Shown piece after piece: positions 41,190 through 64,000 of a stretch of 64,000 bases of DNA. Position numbers and translations under genes: made by a program. This stretch comes from Fidelibacterota bacterium (lineage in GTDB: Bacteria; Fidelibacterota; Marinisomatia; Marinisomatales; TCS55), in contig JACNKN010000032.1 in the NCBI GenBank assembly GCA_014382015.1, positions 1 to 64,000 on the forward strand. The letters are read 5' to 3'. The notes beneath the pieces are model-generated. The model made no database searches, had not been told where the DNA came from, and was given only the letters and a program-made list of their open reading frames with translations. Position 1 is the first letter of the stretch. The number at the start of each line of letters is the position of its first letter.

Positions 41190-42233
41190 TCAAGATGTTG
41201 CCATTTTATCTGATAATTTGGAACAAATAAAGTCCCCGATTTCAATGGTACCCATACTTCCTCCAAGATCTCGCGTCACCCAATCTGCGCCAATAGCTTC
41301 CTCAATAACATTGCGGATCGCAACACCAATAGATTCCTTTTTTTGTGAATTTAAGAATTCAGCTATGGCCAGAATGGCACCAATAGGATCCGCTGCATCC
41401 TTTCCTACATAACGACGACTGGCAGGATGCATGACCTGGAATAATGTTTGTTTGTTTTTTGAACTATGGTACTCGAATCCGGCCCCAAGCCCTCCTTCCA
41501 GTGCCGAAACCATTTTTGAAAATATTCTTCCGTAAGGAGAGACCGTTAATACTAAGTCGAATTGGTCCGGTTTTTTCAAAATATTATAATAGAACTGATC
41601 TACAGAAGACCATTGTATATGAATCCCGCGATCCGCCAATTGATTTGCAGGTTCAATCCATGGACTATCCATTTTTTTCAATTCATCCGGTAACACCAGA
41701 AGTAATCGATTGCGACTGCCCGTTTCAATTAAACTTTGGGCTTCACTAAAAATAGATTCCAAATGGGATTGTGATAGATAAGTTGTCATTATATTTAATT
41801 TTTGCTCACTCACAAAAGTAGCCGGTAATTCGCTGGAGACTGTATGAGAGTAATAATTGCTCTCAATTAACAACACATCAATTGGATTATCCGTTTGAAT
41901 TTTTTGAAGGGATGGCAATGGTTTAAAATGACGGTAAAAAAACTCCAGACCCTGATCGGAACATATTTCTTGTACAATATTTTTTCGATTATATCCTTTC
42001 AGTTTGGATTGGTTTGTGACTGGGCCTAACCAGATTGAATCTGCTTCGTCCGCCATTTTATGTAATACTTTTGGAATGAGTATATTTGTATCACGATAAT
42101 GAGATTCACTGATATCCAGTGTTTGGCTAGATATTCTCAATCCAAAAACGGAATGAATGGTTGCGATTAACTTATGAACTTCAGCCGCTAATTCATTCCC
42201 GACACCATCACCGGGAATGAGGAGAATTTTCAC
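41190..42233 (-). CDS. Isocitrate/isopropylmalate dehydrogenase-like protein, catalytic residues lost
   Basis: A 347-residue homologue of the beta-decarboxylating dehydrogenase family, recognised by the start MKILLIPGDGVGNELAAEV and the late block GKDAADPIGAILAIAEFL. The catalytic core has changed: the R-E-N-T-E-G-x-Y site reads IESNYYS (123-129) and the metal-binding FGDILSD reads YGRIFSK (234-240), losing the Arg and two Asp. D212 remains. The protein is therefore unlikely to be a normal dehydrogenase and may be regulatory or have a different activity (inference). A complete icd is elsewhere in the window. It overlaps the GWxTD gene by 4 nt. Confidence 0.72.
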   Translation of the reverse strand: MKILLIPGDGVGNELAAEVHKLIATIHSVFGLRISSQTLDISESHYRDTNILIPKVLHKMADEADSIWLGPVTNQSKLKGYNRKNIVQEICSDQGLEFFYRHFKPLPSLQKIQTDNPIDVLLIESNYYSHTVSSELPATFVSEQKLNIMTTYLSQSHLESIFSEAQSLIETGSRNRLLLVLPDELKKMDSPWIEPANQLADRGIHIQWSSVDQFYYNILKKPDQFDLVLTVSPYGRIFSKMVSALEGGLGAGFEYHSSKNKQTLFQVMHPASRRYVGKDAADPIGAILAIAEFLNSQKKESIGVAIRNVIEEAIGADWVTRDLGGSMGTIEIGDFICSKLSDKMATS

Positions 42234-43495
42234 CAGCTTCTCCCGCGGAAGAATGGGGTGGATAAACGATAATCGCCAAAGCCATTCTCGTCGATAAAAT
42301 CAAAATATTTATTGATACGATAATAATGCCACCGTTGTGAATATATTCGACTCATGGGATCGTTATAGACTTCTAAATCATCAGGGGGACCAAATAAAAT
42401 ATAAATCATTCCCATATCGGTTTTCCAACCGGGCAAATAAGATTTAAAACTATTGTTAGAATAACTGACACGCGTAAAATATTCATCCATCACTTCATTC
42501 TCAGGTGTCTCAGGTGTCGGATCTCGACTCGCCCAATACTCAAGAAAAAGAGTTTCTTTATCGGTACCCTTTGATTTACTCAATTTTTTCCACTCATCAT
42601 CATGAAGGATATATCTCATATTTTCAACAGCTTGATCAATATTGCTGATGGTTGCAGAAATACCAATTCTGCTCAACGATAATATGACCGATTCTTTCTT
42701 TTTTTCTGATCCCTGCGTTAAAACGATATCTACTTTTTTCCGCAATCCCTGTTTGGCAATATTTTCTGGAATGATAATTCTCTGGTGAAAATAACCCTTA
42801 TCTGAATTCGACTGGAATGATTTCTTCCATATTTCTTTTTTCTTTGAACTAAATACATTCACATCTAAAGTATAGTCGCCAGGTTTTATTTTTCCTGAAA
42901 CAAATACAGACGCACGTGTAACTTTGACCCCCATGATATTTTGAAACATGGGAATTTCATTTTCGTTTAACCCCCAATTCCCGGATAAATAATCCAGGAA
43001 AAAGGGTGTATATAAAGCAATTTCACCTTCATGTTCAGTATATTCCAGTTCTTTTTGCCGAACCCCGCTATCTTTCGAATCCCCATCCAGCACTTCGGCA
43101 GATATGACATAATCTCCTGGAGCGACTTTAAACTCAACTTGATGAATGGTAAAAATATCTTTTGAAGTGGATTCAAGATAATCTATTGTTTTTAATTTGT
43201 TCGACCAATTGCGACGCCCCACCAGATTTCCCTTTTTTCTTTTCAGGGAAATGGTGGCTTCATATTCCGCTTCAAACCCATCTTTAATTTTTAGGAATTG
43301 CAGCACATGATTTGGGACAGAAAGAAACGCTAACACACGGATTGAATCAGAATGTGCATCCGCCACACTATATACAGAAAATCCATATTGCCGAATTGTT
43401 TCCTGATTGCGACCACTATTCGGCCGCATTTGCGCGAACAAAACCTGGGTAAAAAGTAATAGCGTGATTATGATATATTTATTGATATTTTTCAT
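42230..43495 (-). CDS. GWxTD domain-containing protein
   Basis: A 421-residue exported protein with a signal peptide (about 1-21) and beta-rich N-terminal region. The C-terminal domain has WASRDPTPETPENE, YFTRVSYSNNSF and PGWKTDMGMIYILFGPPDD, the GWxTD signature found in secreted proteins of Acidobacteria, Gemmatimonadetes and the FCB group. Its function is not known. It is preceded by a propeller protein (4-nt overlap) and followed by the degenerate dehydrogenase (4-nt overlap), so these three form one unit. Confidence 0.85.
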   Translation of the reverse strand: MKNINKYIIITLLLFTQVLFAQMRPNSGRNQETIRQYGFSVYSVADAHSDSIRVLAFLSVPNHVLQFLKIKDGFEAEYEATISLKRKKGNLVGRRNWSNKLKTIDYLESTSKDIFTIHQVEFKVAPGDYVISAEVLDGDSKDSGVRQKELEYTEHEGEIALYTPFFLDYLSGNWGLNENEIPMFQNIMGVKVTRASVFVSGKIKPGDYTLDVNVFSSKKKEIWKKSFQSNSDKGYFHQRIIIPENIAKQGLRKKVDIVLTQGSEKKKESVILSLSRIGISATISNIDQAVENMRYILHDDEWKKLSKSKGTDKETLFLEYWASRDPTPETPENEVMDEYFTRVSYSNNSFKSYLPGWKTDMGMIYILFGPPDDLEVYNDPMSRIYSQRWHYYRINKYFDFIDENGFGDYRLSTPFFRGRSW

Positions 43496-45105
43496 CTATA
43501 TCGATACGAGATAAGTCCTTCAGTAGTTCCCAACCAAATTTTCCTCCCCTTAATATACATGTCGTTTACCTGTCCTATAAATGAATAATTAAACACATCC
43601 ATCAGGTTTTTTTTCATATCATATTGGACAATGCCATTTTCAGTAGCGATAAATACTATATTTTTATGCAATGCCATGGTTTTTATTTCTAATCCGCCAA
43701 ATATTGAAGGATCAACTGCATTAGACCACCGTCGATCCTTAAAATTAAATTTCAATACACCGGATCGATTCGAAGTCAATATGTGCTGTGAATCCTGTGT
43801 AAAAGCTGTATAATCATAATATTTTAAAGGAAAGGTAACATCTTTTGCTTTATATCCGTATGTGGTGTATTCTTGTATAATTTGTTTTTCCAGATCATAT
43901 AAAAAAAGTCCTGTTTCAGTTCCAATCCAAATTTTATTTTTTCCTACTGCCAAGTCATATATATAAATATTATTGAAGTATTTTTCTACTTTTGACACTA
44001 TGGGTTTTTTATCAATCTTTTTTAGGATCGTAACACCTTGTGAACTGCCCACCCATACATGCTCACCAACATCAATCATGGATGTGGTCCAACTCTTTCC
44101 TCCGCCCAAGCGTAATTTATATGTCCGCCAGAAATCCTTCTTTTTATCATAAACCAAGAGGGCATTTTCTCCTCCAAACCATATTTCTTTTTTTAACTCT
44201 AATATGGAGGAAATAGATGTTTGATCTAAATTGATTGTTCTACTAAAAATATAATTATCAGCAATTTCTCGATCCGCATCAAAATAAGTCAGCCCGGATT
44301 CATGGGTTGCCAACCGCCCCCCAAGCCAAAATGAATCACCTCCACTGATGGTTTGAATATCATTGCTGGCAAGACTAAATCGGAATGGTGACATGGTTTT
44401 CATGGTAGGGTCACTTCGAAAAAAGGTGCCATCTTCTGTACCAATCCACACTTCGTTGAATGAATTTTTTGCAATCGTAGTAATATCAATATACTGTCCG
44501 TTTGGATGTACCAAATTTTGCAAATCTGTCATCCACCCATCCAAGAATGAATATTCAATAAGAAATTCAGATATATCAGGTTGGAACCGTAATAAACCTG
44601 AACTCCAAGCCACAGGTTCATCAGGGCTCGCCATGATGCCAATCATTATACCGGTCAATGGATCAAGGCGATAAACCAATCCTGGCGTATCTAACCAAAT
44701 ATAATGCTCTGACTCACCAATTCGCTCTATATAGGCTCCAGAGGGGAGTCCTAACATATCTCTGTCAATAAAATGCCAATCGCCCTTTTCATCCAAGCTG
44801 GATTCAATTCCCATGGGTGTTGCTACCCATAACATACTATTTGATGATCGATGAATAGCTGTAATCGTGTTACTATGTAGACCCTGTGCTCGCGTAATAG
44901 GTTCTTCAAATCTATCCGAAAAAAGATTAAATCGCACGACACCGCCGGATTGAGTACCCATATAGGCAAACCGATCACTAAAAGTGATTGAATTCACTTT
45001 TCCTGTGTAACGATACTGAACCCAATCGAATGTTTGAAATCTTAATTCAGGCTGAGCGAAGGAAAAACCAACTGATAAAATGGTGATAAGAATGTGACGA
45101 ATCAT
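43492..45105 (-). CDS. Secreted beta-propeller protein (two-component-regulator-like propeller)
   Basis: A 537-residue exported protein (signal peptide about 1-17) made of propeller blades of the reg_prop type. Repeated W-I/V-G-T motifs are visible: LWVATPMGIES, VWIGTEDGTFF, IWFGGENALLVY, VWVGSSQGVTIL, IWIGTETGLFLYD and IWLGTTEGLISYRY. Such repeats form the periplasmic sensor of hybrid two-component systems, but here no kinase domain follows. It probably works at the cell surface with the GWxTD protein (inference). Confidence 0.8.
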   Translation of the reverse strand: MIRHILITILSVGFSFAQPELRFQTFDWVQYRYTGKVNSITFSDRFAYMGTQSGGVVRFNLFSDRFEEPITRAQGLHSNTITAIHRSSNSMLWVATPMGIESSLDEKGDWHFIDRDMLGLPSGAYIERIGESEHYIWLDTPGLVYRLDPLTGIMIGIMASPDEPVAWSSGLLRFQPDISEFLIEYSFLDGWMTDLQNLVHPNGQYIDITTIAKNSFNEVWIGTEDGTFFRSDPTMKTMSPFRFSLASNDIQTISGGDSFWLGGRLATHESGLTYFDADREIADNYIFSRTINLDQTSISSILELKKEIWFGGENALLVYDKKKDFWRTYKLRLGGGKSWTTSMIDVGEHVWVGSSQGVTILKKIDKKPIVSKVEKYFNNIYIYDLAVGKNKIWIGTETGLFLYDLEKQIIQEYTTYGYKAKDVTFPLKYYDYTAFTQDSQHILTSNRSGVLKFNFKDRRWSNAVDPSIFGGLEIKTMALHKNIVFIATENGIVQYDMKKNLMDVFNYSFIGQVNDMYIKGRKIWLGTTEGLISYRYR

Positions 45106-46272: not shown

Positions 46273-46893
46273 CTAAATATCTTCTGTACTGACAATTTGT
46301 TCTGGCAAAAGTAACGCTAAAATAATATAAAGTAATACACCCACACCAATACTCATAAACGTACCGAATACCCATAGAACACGAACAATATTCGAATCGA
46401 TCCCCAGGGATTCACCTAATCCCCCGCATACACCTGCTAACTTTTTATCATTGGCAGATAAATGTAATGGATTATTCATGACATCTTCATTCATGGATTT
46501 CAATTCTCTTTGCCGGTTATAGAGAAGATAAATTCCGATTCCCAGCAACATAAAAGCAACAGACATGTTAAGGAAATTTCCCCAGAAGGCGGCCCATAAA
46601 AGGAAAAAGATATGATCATATTGAAGGAAAAGAATAATGCCAGCAAAAATAAAAAGTATGCCCCAGAGCGGATTACTTTTTAGGGAGTCGATGTTTAAAA
46701 ACCGTTCATACCCATTTCCATCTGGAATCATTATTGTTGCAATGATATAAGCCAATAATCCAGATCCACCAAATAAGGTGAAAAATATCCAAATTAATCT
46801 AACAATTGTAGGATCAATTGAAAAATAATGTGCCACGCCGCCGCATACGCCAGTCAGAACGCGATCAGACTTGGATCTTGTTATCCGCTGCAT
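46273..46893 (-). CDS. Tandem PspC-domain membrane protein
   Basis: A 206-residue membrane protein with two PspC domains. The first (about 1-58) has RVLTGVCGGVAHYFSIDPTIVRLIW followed by two membrane helices, and the second (about 143-200) has KLAGVCGGLGESLGIDSNIV followed by two more. Between them lie two further hydrophobic segments. PspC proteins sense envelope stress in the Psp system; no pspA is nearby. It lies 18 nt after an unusual ABC-type ATPase gene. Confidence 0.87.
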   Translation of the reverse strand: MQRITRSKSDRVLTGVCGGVAHYFSIDPTIVRLIWIFFTLFGGSGLLAYIIATIMIPDGNGYERFLNIDSLKSNPLWGILFIFAGIILFLQYDHIFFLLWAAFWGNFLNMSVAFMLLGIGIYLLYNRQRELKSMNEDVMNNPLHLSANDKKLAGVCGGLGESLGIDSNIVRVLWVFGTFMSIGVGVLLYIILALLLPEQIVSTEDI

Positions 46894-46911
46894 GTGTAAA
46901 ATTTACATCAA

Positions 46912-47649
46912 TCAAGAAGATTTACGATAATTTCTTTGCCCTCCCCGCCGAGATTGTTTTCTATCCTTATTAAAACTACCTCTTCCAACTCCGGGGCGAA
47001 TTTTAGAAATATGACCATTATCAAGATAAATGAGTACAGAAGCAACACGTTTTATATGCTGATCTGACGGCGCGGCTAAAACAATGGTCGTTCCCAAATC
47101 TTTATTCATTCGAACAATTTTTTTCCGAAAATCCGATTCCATATTTTTATCGAAGAATACGCCATAATCATCAATCATTAATACCCGTGGATCAGATTCT
47201 AAAGCTATAATCATATTCAGCAAGGAAAGTTCTCCGGGAGAAAGAGCGGCTAACTTTCGCTTTAATAAAACTGAAAGGGATCCATTTTGAAAATAATTAG
47301 ATGTATGTTTTTCTAATCTGTTTTTATCGATAGATTTTACAATATCGGATACAGTAGATCCACTGGATATAGAGGCAAAATTTGCCAGTGCTATTTCCCG
47401 ATTTTGTTTGATTTTTCCTAACCAGTTTGTTTCAAACTCTTCATTTTCAAACTTGACTGTACCATCAGTTTGTTTTGTAACACCGGCGAGAATATTAAGA
47501 AAGGTTGATTTTCCAGAACCAATGGACCCGATCATGCCATAAATAGTTCCCCGATGGATTTCCAGCCGTCGGATATTTAATATTAGATGATCCCCATAGG
47601 ATTTTTTCAATCCCTTAATATCGTAAATTGTAGTCGTTCTTTGACTCAT
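46912..47649 (-). CDS. Degenerate ABC ATPase with basic C-terminal tail
   Basis: A 245-residue protein with an ABC ATPase fold: Walker A GSIGSGKST (41-49), signature LSPGE (136-140), and Walker B VLMIDDYG (156-163). However, the catalytic Glu after Walker B is Asp161, the H-loop His is Pro194 (LAAPSDQ), and no Q-loop Gln is visible in the expected region. The last 25 residues are rich in Arg, Gly and Lys (RGSFNKDRK, RRGGQRNYRK). It can probably bind but not efficiently hydrolyse ATP, and may bind nucleic acid or membrane lipid (inference). No permease gene is adjacent; the neighbour is a tandem PspC protein. Confidence 0.72.
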   Translation of the reverse strand: MSQRTTTIYDIKGLKKSYGDHLILNIRRLEIHRGTIYGMIGSIGSGKSTFLNILAGVTKQTDGTVKFENEEFETNWLGKIKQNREIALANFASISSGSTVSDIVKSIDKNRLEKHTSNYFQNGSLSVLLKRKLAALSPGELSLLNMIIALESDPRVLMIDDYGVFFDKNMESDFRKKIVRMNKDLGTTIVLAAPSDQHIKRVASVLIYLDNGHISKIRPGVGRGSFNKDRKQSRRGGQRNYRKSS

Positions 47650-47690: not shown

Positions 47691-48620
47691 CTAAGTATTC
47701 TGGCTTTCTAAAAACCGTTCAGCATCAATGGCTGCCATACAGCCTGATCCTGCAGCTGTAACTGCTTGGCGATAAACATGATCCTGAACATCACCACAGG
47801 CAAATACACCTTCAATATTTGTGGCAGTAGTACCGTTGTTGGTAACCAAATAACCTGCTTGATCAGAATTGAGAATATCGATAAATAATTCTGTGTTTGG
47901 TTTATGACCTATAGCCATAAACACACCATCACAAGATTCTTCACGAATGTTTCCGTTTTGCGTATCTTTCATTTTAACGCCATGGACACCTTTTTCTTTG
48001 GTGCCAAGAATCTCATCAATGACAGAATTCCATGCCACTTTAATTTTGGGATGAGCCAGTGCACGTTCAGCCATTATCTTAGACGCCCGGAATTCCTCCC
48101 GGCGGTGTACGATAATCACTTCTGATGCAAATTTTGTGAGATAAGTTGCTTCTTCAATGGCTGAATCGCCGCCACCCACAACAAGTACTTTTTTATCACG
48201 ATAGAAAAATCCATCGCATGTGGCACAGGCAGAAACACCGTATCCCATCAGTTCCGCTTCACTTTCAAGACCAAGCATTTGCGCTGAAGCACCAGTGGCA
48301 ACTACGATAGTTTCACCTGCATATTCTTCATCACCTACCCACACTTTAAATGGGCGCTTGCTTAAGTCAACTTTCGTCACATGTTTGAAATGGCATTCTG
48401 CGCCAAATCGTGTCGCTTGCTCACGGAACAAATCCATTAGTTCAGGTCCCATGATCCCTTTAGGAAACCCTGGATAATTTTCTACATCAGTCGTAATGGT
48501 CAATTGACCCCCTGGCTGATTTCCTTCTAATACCAATGGATTTAAGTTGGCCCGGGCTGAATACAATGCTGCAGTTAATCCTGCAGGACCCGAACCGATA
48601 ATGATAACCTTTCGATTCAT
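47691..48620 (-). CDS. trxB: Thioredoxin reductase
   Basis: A 309-residue FAD/NADPH flavoenzyme that reduces thioredoxin. It has the FAD-binding [16 protein letters not shown], the redox-active disulfide CATC in [13 protein letters not shown], the NADPH motif [15 protein letters not shown], and [19 protein letters not shown]-type terminal FAD motif. It lies 15 nt after trxA on the same strand, so the pair can be expressed together. Confidence 0.97.
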
Positions 48621-48635
48621 TGTCTATGAATTAAA

Positions 48636-48962
48636 TTAAATAACTGTATCGAGTATTTCAGTTATTTTTGTTTTGGGTACAGCGCCAACAATTTGATTGA
48701 CCACTGCTCCCTTATTGAATATTAAAAGCGCCGGAATACTCCGGACACCGAATTGCATGGCCATTTGATTTTCATTGTCCACATTTAGTTTACCTACTTT
48801 GACTTTTCCATCATATTCATTGGCCACTTCTTCTACTATCGGCGCAATGGCACGACAGGGTCCACACCACTCTGCCCAGAAATCCACGAGGACAGGTGTA
48901 TCGGACTTAATTACATCAGCATCAAAATTGGCTGAAGTAAATTCTTTGACATTTTCAGACAT
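48636..48962 (-). CDS. trxA: Thioredoxin
   Basis: A 108-residue thioredoxin with the active site WAEWCGPCRAIAP, the conserved cis-proline in VRSIPALLIF and the usual length. It is a general disulfide reductase of the cytoplasm. A good Shine-Dalgarno (AAGGAG) precedes the ATG, and a promoter-like sequence lies about 50 nt upstream. Confidence 0.98.
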   Translation of the reverse strand: MSENVKEFTSANFDADVIKSDTPVLVDFWAEWCGPCRAIAPIVEEVANEYDGKVKVGKLNVDNENQMAMQFGVRSIPALLIFNKGAVVNQIVGAVPKTKITEILDTVI

Positions 48963-62435: not shown

Positions 62436-64000
62436 TTGATTTCAACTTCCAATATTTCTATCCAATTTGGTGAAAAACCACTCTTTGAACATATATCTAT
62501 CACTTTTGGTAAAGGTAACCGCTATGGCCTTATCGGTGCCAATGGGTCGGGAAAATCGACCTATATGAAAATCCTTTCTGGTGAACAAGAGCCCACAACC
62601 GGAAATGTAGCCATCGATAAAAATGACCGTGTTGCAAAATTAAATCAGGATCAATTTGCCTATGAAGAAATGACTGTTATCGATTGTGTCATCATGGGCC
62701 ATGGAAAATTATGGGAGATTAAACAGGAACGCGAACGAATCTACGCCCTTCCAGATATGAGCGAGGAAGAAGCCATGAAAGTAGGTGACTTAGAAATGGA
62801 ATTCGCCGAAATGGATGGATACACTGCCGAATCACGCGCCGGGGATTTATTGTTAGGTGTTGGTATTCCTTTAGAACAGCATGAAGGCATTATGAGTGCT
62901 ATTGCACCCGGTTGGAAACTTCGTGTACTACTTGCACAAGCACTCTTTGCAGATCCGGATATTTTGCTTTTAGATGAGCCCACTAACAATTTAGATATTA
63001 ATACAATTCGATGGTTAGAAGAAATTCTGAATCGTCGAAACAGCACCATGATTATTATTTCTCATGATCGCCATTTTCTAAATAGTGTTTGCACCCATAT
63101 GGCAGATTTAGATTATGGTGAACTTCGCATTTATCCCGGAAATTATGACGACTTTATGACTGCATCTACCCAGGCGCGTGAGAGGATGCTTCAAGATAAT
63201 GCGAAGAAAAAAGCACAAATCGCTGAATTGCAATCATTTGTTAAACGGTTTTCCGCCAATGCATCTAAAGCAAAACAAGCCACATCTCGTGCAAATCAAA
63301 TGGCTAAAATCAAATTGGATGATATAAAAAATTCCAGCCGCGTTTATCCTTTCATTCGATTCAACCAAGAAAAAAAACTATTCAATACCGCATTAGAAGT
63401 AAAAGATTTTACCAAAGGATTCGATGACATATCTCTTTTCAAAAAATTTAACTTATTAATTGAAACAGGCGAACGGGTAGCCATTATTGGGCCAAATGGA
63501 ATTGGAAAAACAACATTATTAGAATGTTTAACTGATAATCTACTACAGGATAGTGGTGAAATTAAATGGTCCGACAATGCAAAAATCGGCTATTTTTCCC
63601 AAAACCATGGGGCTGACTTTAAATCAAATATGTCATTAATCGATTGGATGGCCCAATGGAAAAGTGATGAGGATGACATGCAGGTCATCCGAGGTACACT
63701 CGGACGGTTATTGTTTTCCCAAAATGATATTAACAAACCCGTTAATGTTATTTCCGGTGGTGAACAAAGGCGAATGATATTTGGAAAATTAATTCTACAA
63801 AAACCCAATGTGATTATCATGGATGAGCCCACCAATCACCTGGATATGGAATCGATCGAGTCCCTAAACGGCGCTTTAGATAGTTTCCCAGGAACACTCA
63901 TATTTGTGAGCCATGATCGAGAATTCGTTTCAACCCTCGCGACGAGAATTATTGAACTCGCCCCAAATAAAGTGTTAGAATATAATAGTAATTATGACAG
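62436..64000 (+). CDS. ABC-F family ATPase, YbiT-like, 3' end beyond window
   Basis: A duplicated ABC ATPase of about 522 visible residues, starting at a TTG with Shine-Dalgarno CGGAG seven bases upstream. Both halves are intact: Walker [10 protein letters not shown] and GPNGIGKTT, signatures and Walker [13 protein letters not shown] and [13 protein letters not shown]-loops ISHDRHF and VSHDREF, plus the charged linker [20 protein letters not shown]. It aligns by eye very closely with E. coli YbiT. ABC-F proteins act on ribosomes rather than as transporters. By length only about ten residues are missing at the window edge. Confidence 0.93.

Follow-up and report, generated by a model that had tools for sequence, protein, structure and literature searches.

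A conserved ABC-type ATPase of Marinimicrobia that lacks catalytic residues and an adjoining permease, and its possible role as an ATP-binding switch

RESULTS

An ABC-type ATPase encoded between thioredoxin genes and a tandem PspC gene

The window analyzed here, a 64,000-nucleotide stretch of a Fidelibacterota genome, encodes an ABC-type ATPase that lies between trxA-trxB and a gene for a protein with two PspC domains (Table 1). The ABC_tran profile (PF00005) matched the ATPase with E = 1.5e-16 and 61.7 bits against a cut-off of 25, and Pfam detected both PspC stretches in the downstream protein (E = 4.3e-43). On the minus strand, no terminator-like site was found in the trxB-ATPase or the ATPase-pspC interval; this is no proof of co-transcription, but it is compatible with it, and the arrangement is consistent with trxB, the ATPase gene and pspC forming one transcription unit.

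Table 1 Features of the ATPase locus in the window
Feature	Position	Strand	Remarks
ABC-type ATPase domain ORF	46912..47649	minus	245 aa; from ORF list and Pfam
Walker A of ATPase			GSIGSGKS, residues 41-48
Signature of ATPase			LSPGE, residues 136-140
Walker B of ATPase			RVLMIDD, residues 155-161
Basic C-terminal tail of ATPase	46912..46995	minus	residues 219-245 and stop
Tandem PspC protein	46273..46893	minus	206 aa; two PspC domains; 18 bp downstream of ATPase
trxB, thioredoxin reductase	47691..48620	minus	41 bp upstream of ATPase
trxA, thioredoxin	48636..48962	minus	upstream of trxB

Further downstream, positions 42230-45105 encode two proteins, a beta-propeller that matches a PorZ-type domain and one with a GWxTD domain; these genes lie downstream of a PfkB/HldA-like kinase gene and trail the ATPase locus in many members of the order. 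Near the end of the window, a frame of 549 aa (62487-63836) carries two ABC domains and possibly encodes an ABC-F protein.

The ATPase retains the nucleotide-binding motifs and lacks three catalytic features

The ABC_tran match, Walker A, signature and Walker B Asp place the protein in the ABC ATPase superfamily, and these motifs are kept in 66 orthologues. The hallmarks of a catalytically competent nucleotide-binding domain (NBD) are missing: Asp161 occupies the position of the catalytic Glu, Pro194 that of the H-loop His, and no Gln is present at the Q-loop column, which was set by sister orthologues. As a control, further ABC domains encoded in this genome were aligned in the same way; almost all have the Glu and the majority the His, so the missing residues are not an alignment artefact. 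An initial annotation, made from the window's letters and open reading frames, had read the intact Walker A and all three absences in just this way.

The AlphaFold2 model (pLDDT 85) has an ordinary ABC NBD fold, with lower confidence for residues at about 91-130 and for the tail (pLDDT about 55), and its best Foldseek matches are ordinary transporter NBDs. By sequence, the PDB entries closest to it are those of EttA and RNase L inhibitor; these matches are weak and lie mostly over the nucleotide site. None of the NCBIfam equivalogs came near its cut-off, the best being TupC (NF041774) with 76 of 400 bits, in agreement with the earlier view that no named family fits, and a literature search found no paper on this ATPase family. 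An anti-phage role was considered and rejected, as the PADLOC matches (mad8, mad3) reflect weak P-loop similarity.

The tail (residues 219-245) contains 6 Arg, 3 Lys and 5 Gly. It is basic in nearly all orthologues, with a median of 40% Lys/Arg and a median Gly content of 8%; the Arg/Gly composition stressed in the initial annotation does not define it. Its length after residue 219 ranges from 3 to 229 residues (median 22.5), and two members of the class have no tail. Very long low-complexity basic tails also occur, of about 150 residues in L042 and 229 residues in L154; the latter is one of the long Arg/Gly-rich tails found in some members of sister orders.

The gene is widespread in one class and under strong selection

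A profile built from 59 orthologues (E <= 1e-25) detected the ATPase in 115 of the 130 genomes of the window's order and, outside this order, in 35 of 41 genomes of its class of Fidelibacterota ("Marinimicrobia"), that is, in 150 of 171. A relatives search likewise gave strong matches to the window ATPase in the majority of the 101 order genomes that it covered. The gene is retained in streamlined genomes of 0.7-1.0 Mb; it was not found in 15 of the 130 genomes of the order, and most of these 15 are incomplete assemblies. Nearly all genome-collection sources of the gene are labeled Candidatus Neomarinimicrobiota or Marinimicrobia (NCBI phylum Fidelibacterota); the scan of these contigs used order-specific peptide patterns, and a wider spread is thus possible. 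Contigs labeled Thaumarchaeota and Dokdonia (L077, L145) carry a Marinimicrobia-type gene and are likely mis-binned.

Against three close relatives, the dN/dS of the ATPase is 0.07-0.11, compared with 0.06-0.08 for trxB. More than 15 positions are invariant in the orthologues of the order, including, across the 66, His32, Tyr37, the Walker A Gly and Lys, Asp153, Gly186, Thr188, Gly212 and Arg218. The substitution ratios and invariant residues indicate that the gene is under strong selection and is not a decayed gene.

Catalytic residues were probably lost in steps

Among 66 members of the order, position 161 is Asp in 56, Asn in 8 and Glu in 2, one of them L042, and position 194 is Pro in 32, Thr in 11, Ser in 7, Ile in 6, Ala in 4, Gln in 3 and His in 2; no conserved Gln was found in the columns around 86-92. 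In the sister orders of the class (n = 22), the Q-loop Gln is present in 19 proteins and the catalytic Glu in 17, with the H-loop His in only 2. Since the sister orders keep Gln and Glu yet lack His, the His was probably lost first, with Gln and Glu following later, in the window's order. Walker A and the signature are retained, as is the greater part of the D-loop and A-loop residues.

In the phylogenetic tree, the order and the rest of the class are united with support of 98/94, and two f23 proteins whose genes neighbor pcm join this family with 95/85. Both f23 proteins also lack the H-loop His, and one has Asp in place of Glu. Separately, a frame of 439 aa in the window's genome (L201, G000:C9:57300-60000) codes for two ABC domains; in the first, Asp likewise replaces the catalytic Glu, and Ser occupies the His column.

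trxA-trxB is the constant neighbor and PspC a variable one

trxA-trxB lies directly upstream of the ATPase gene in all 70 loci of the order, with a gap to trxB of at most 120 bp; these two genes are the constant partners of the ATPase in the window's order. The window ATPase contains no cysteine, which makes its direct thiol regulation by TrxAB unlikely. In sister orders, the locus reads trxA-trxB-endonuclease III-GATase1-ABC-HDAC-PspC in various subsets, and the neighbors of the ATPase gene comprise GATase1, endonuclease III, HDAC-like, PspC and GpmI-like genes. The GATase, HhH-GPD and PspC assignments were confirmed by Pfam on the homologues in the genus f24 described below; HDAC-like and GpmI-like genes were recognized by eye.

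The PspC gene directly follows the ATPase gene in 17 of the 70 loci and is one gene away in 12. In 37 loci, no PspC gene appeared although 1.4 kb or more of sequence was available downstream; the other 4 loci, on short contigs, could be assigned to none of these groups. Any PspC domain occurs in 68 of the 171 genomes of the class, as against 150 for the ATPase, and one genome that is 96% complete (G015) has the ATPase and no PspC. The tandem PspC protein is therefore a variable neighbor and not an obligate partner. Although the window protein has two PspC domains (PF04024, TIGR02978), it scores 88.9, below the TIGR02978 cut-off of 104, and has no conserved link to the ATPase. In genome G003, the ATPase gene is directly followed by a short leftover of PspC sequence that contains a stop codon (G003:C69:10521-10616), as though pspC had been lost in place.

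No permease adjoins the ATPase gene in the class loci examined

No permease adjoins the ATPase gene in the 70 loci of the order or in the class loci read. PF00528, which represents importer-type permeases, matched nothing in the window's genome (94% complete) or in four of five streamlined genomes tested; this profile misses the f24 permease. NF038017 (ABC_perm1 type), which does detect that permease, gave nothing in the window's genome and no match over its cut-off in the 171 class genomes. Together with the loss of the Q-loop Gln, these results on adjoining and importer-type permeases make it probable that the ATPase is no transporter component, as the initial annotation had suggested.

A permease gene next to that of a similar ATPase came to light in f24, a distant genus of another class (L183, L184), where the locus reads trxA-endoIII-GATase1-permease-ABC-Nfi-Pcm-PspC (Nfi, GATase, HhH-GPD and PspC by Pfam, Pcm by eye). 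This permease resembles ABC_perm1/TupB below the cut-off, and no homologue was found elsewhere in 245 genomes of the phylum. The f24 ATPase keeps the Q-loop Gln and the catalytic Glu and lacks the H-loop His. In the tree it groups weakly with other ATPases, and its placement in one clade with the family was not rejected (p-AU 0.35); a permease-linked ancestor of the family is a possibility. The initial annotation had named canonical close relatives with an adjacent permease as evidence against its reading. Relatives fit this description only in part: the sister orders provide the Q-loop Gln and the Glu but no permease; the f24 genus provides the permease, Gln and Glu but not the His, in an ATPase that is a possible orthologue.

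DISCUSSION

Based on these data, we consider it rather likely that the ATPase is a permease-less NBD that binds ATP and acts as a slowly hydrolyzing or non-hydrolyzing dimeric switch or scaffold. The protein would bind ATP and close into a homodimer, and hydrolysis at both sites of this dimer would be very slow or absent. ATP occupancy, and not turnover, would thereby set its state, and the ATPase would be a cytoplasmic switch or scaffold that holds ATP, with the disordered basic tail probably docking it on a polyanion. Because the tail is basic, we guess that its target is RNA or the ribosome sooner than the membrane, and we hold this part only tentatively. In ABC exporters, sites with Glu replaced by Asp hydrolyze ATP much more slowly than the transport cycle proceeds, changes of the Walker B Glu often accompany H-loop changes, and Asp at the catalytic position can still support slow hydrolysis (PMC7756269). 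Against a switch stand this slow hydrolysis with Asp, the two members of the order that keep Glu, the two with His at the H-loop column, and the Foldseek preference for ordinary transporter NBDs; moreover, the claim of an essential tail is weakened by lineages in which it spans only a few residues.

How the ATPase works with other proteins could be read differently. The initial annotation had paired it with PspC as a possible envelope-stress sensor. The 18-bp gap in the window and the adjacent or near-adjacent genes in 17 and 12 of the 70 loci speak for such a pair, as does the occurrence of PspC near the ATPase in both the sister orders and f24, which makes the neighborhood an old one. The pairing stands for part of the window's genus and for some other lineages, but not for the family: the conservation in relatives that had been proposed as a check is missing, G015 does without PspC, PspC domains are far rarer than the ATPase among class genomes, and unrelated genes intervene between the two in sister lineages. 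With trxA-trxB as the partner conserved in 70 of 70 loci, we regard a PspC-linked sensor as very improbable; it is not supported as a conserved function and is possible in lineages with both genes. Alternatively, the ATPase may drive an unlinked permease in trans, as do ATPases shared among importers. Sharing of NBDs by several transporters is described (PMC7658222), the fold is that of a plain importer or exporter NBD, and in f24 the corresponding locus encodes a TupB-like permease adjacent to a similar ATPase. However, PF00528, which covers the importer type only, found no candidate in the window's genome or in four of five streamlined ones, the Q-loop Gln that couples an NBD to its transmembrane domain is lost along with Glu and His, and the f24 permease has no homologue in any other of the 245 phylum genomes; transport in trans is thus doubtful.

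An RNA- or ribosome-associated factor, similar to ABC-F or ABCE proteins with one NBD, would be a special case of the switch. The EttA and RNase L inhibitor matches, weak and mostly over the nucleotide site, point in this direction together with the basic tail, which is long and Arg/Gly-rich in some sister-order members such as L154 (229 residues). The protein has no ABC-F linker, second NBD or Fe-S domain, Foldseek prefers transporter NBDs, and the tail is absent or very short in some members, so we rate this form as unlikely, if somewhat less so than transport in trans. Least probable of all is a decaying pseudo-ATPase that owes its persistence solely to its location within the trxAB transcription unit. 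Loss of catalytic residues in steps and absence from 15 of 130 genomes of the order would fit such a course, but the low dN/dS (0.07-0.11), the more than 15 invariant positions and retention in genomes of 0.7-1.0 Mb run counter to it, and most missing cases are incomplete assemblies.

The protein can be compared with several known systems. It resembles type I importer NBDs of the TupC/WtpC/CysA/MalK group in whole-domain fold, Walker A, signature and Walker B framework, and through the TupB-like permease beside a similar ATPase in f24, but it has no permease, Q-loop Gln, catalytic Glu or H-loop His, and it remains far from TupC itself (76 bits, cut-off 400). It also recalls the degenerate sites of heterodimeric ABC exporters (MRP1 NBS1, TAP), in which Glu is replaced by Asp, the H-loop is often changed and Walker A is intact, and which bind ATP and hydrolyze it slowly (PMC7756269). 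In those proteins, one of two sites is degenerate and the signature is altered too, whereas the window ATPase, a soluble single NBD with an intact signature, would form two identical degenerate sites. ABC-F proteins (EttA) and ABCE1/Rli1 are likewise non-transport ABC proteins and its top PDB sequence matches, weakly; they have two NBDs per chain, a linker or Fe-S domain and the catalytic Glu, and the window ATPase has one NBD in 245 residues.

The gene is conserved in a large, mostly uncultured marine phylum and kept even in genomes below 1 Mb, and general annotation would probably call this transporter-type ATPase a transporter subunit. The fullest version of our proposal is a soluble single-NBD family, confined to one phylum in these data and permease-less, that lost His, Gln and Glu in steps, became an ATP-occupancy switch on RNA or the ribosome and is expressed with thioredoxin genes; taken as a whole, we put it forward as a long shot. 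If true, the family would provide a natural series from proteins with the Q-loop Gln and Glu to proteins with neither, in which the function of an ABC dimer that can dispense with hydrolysis could be studied.
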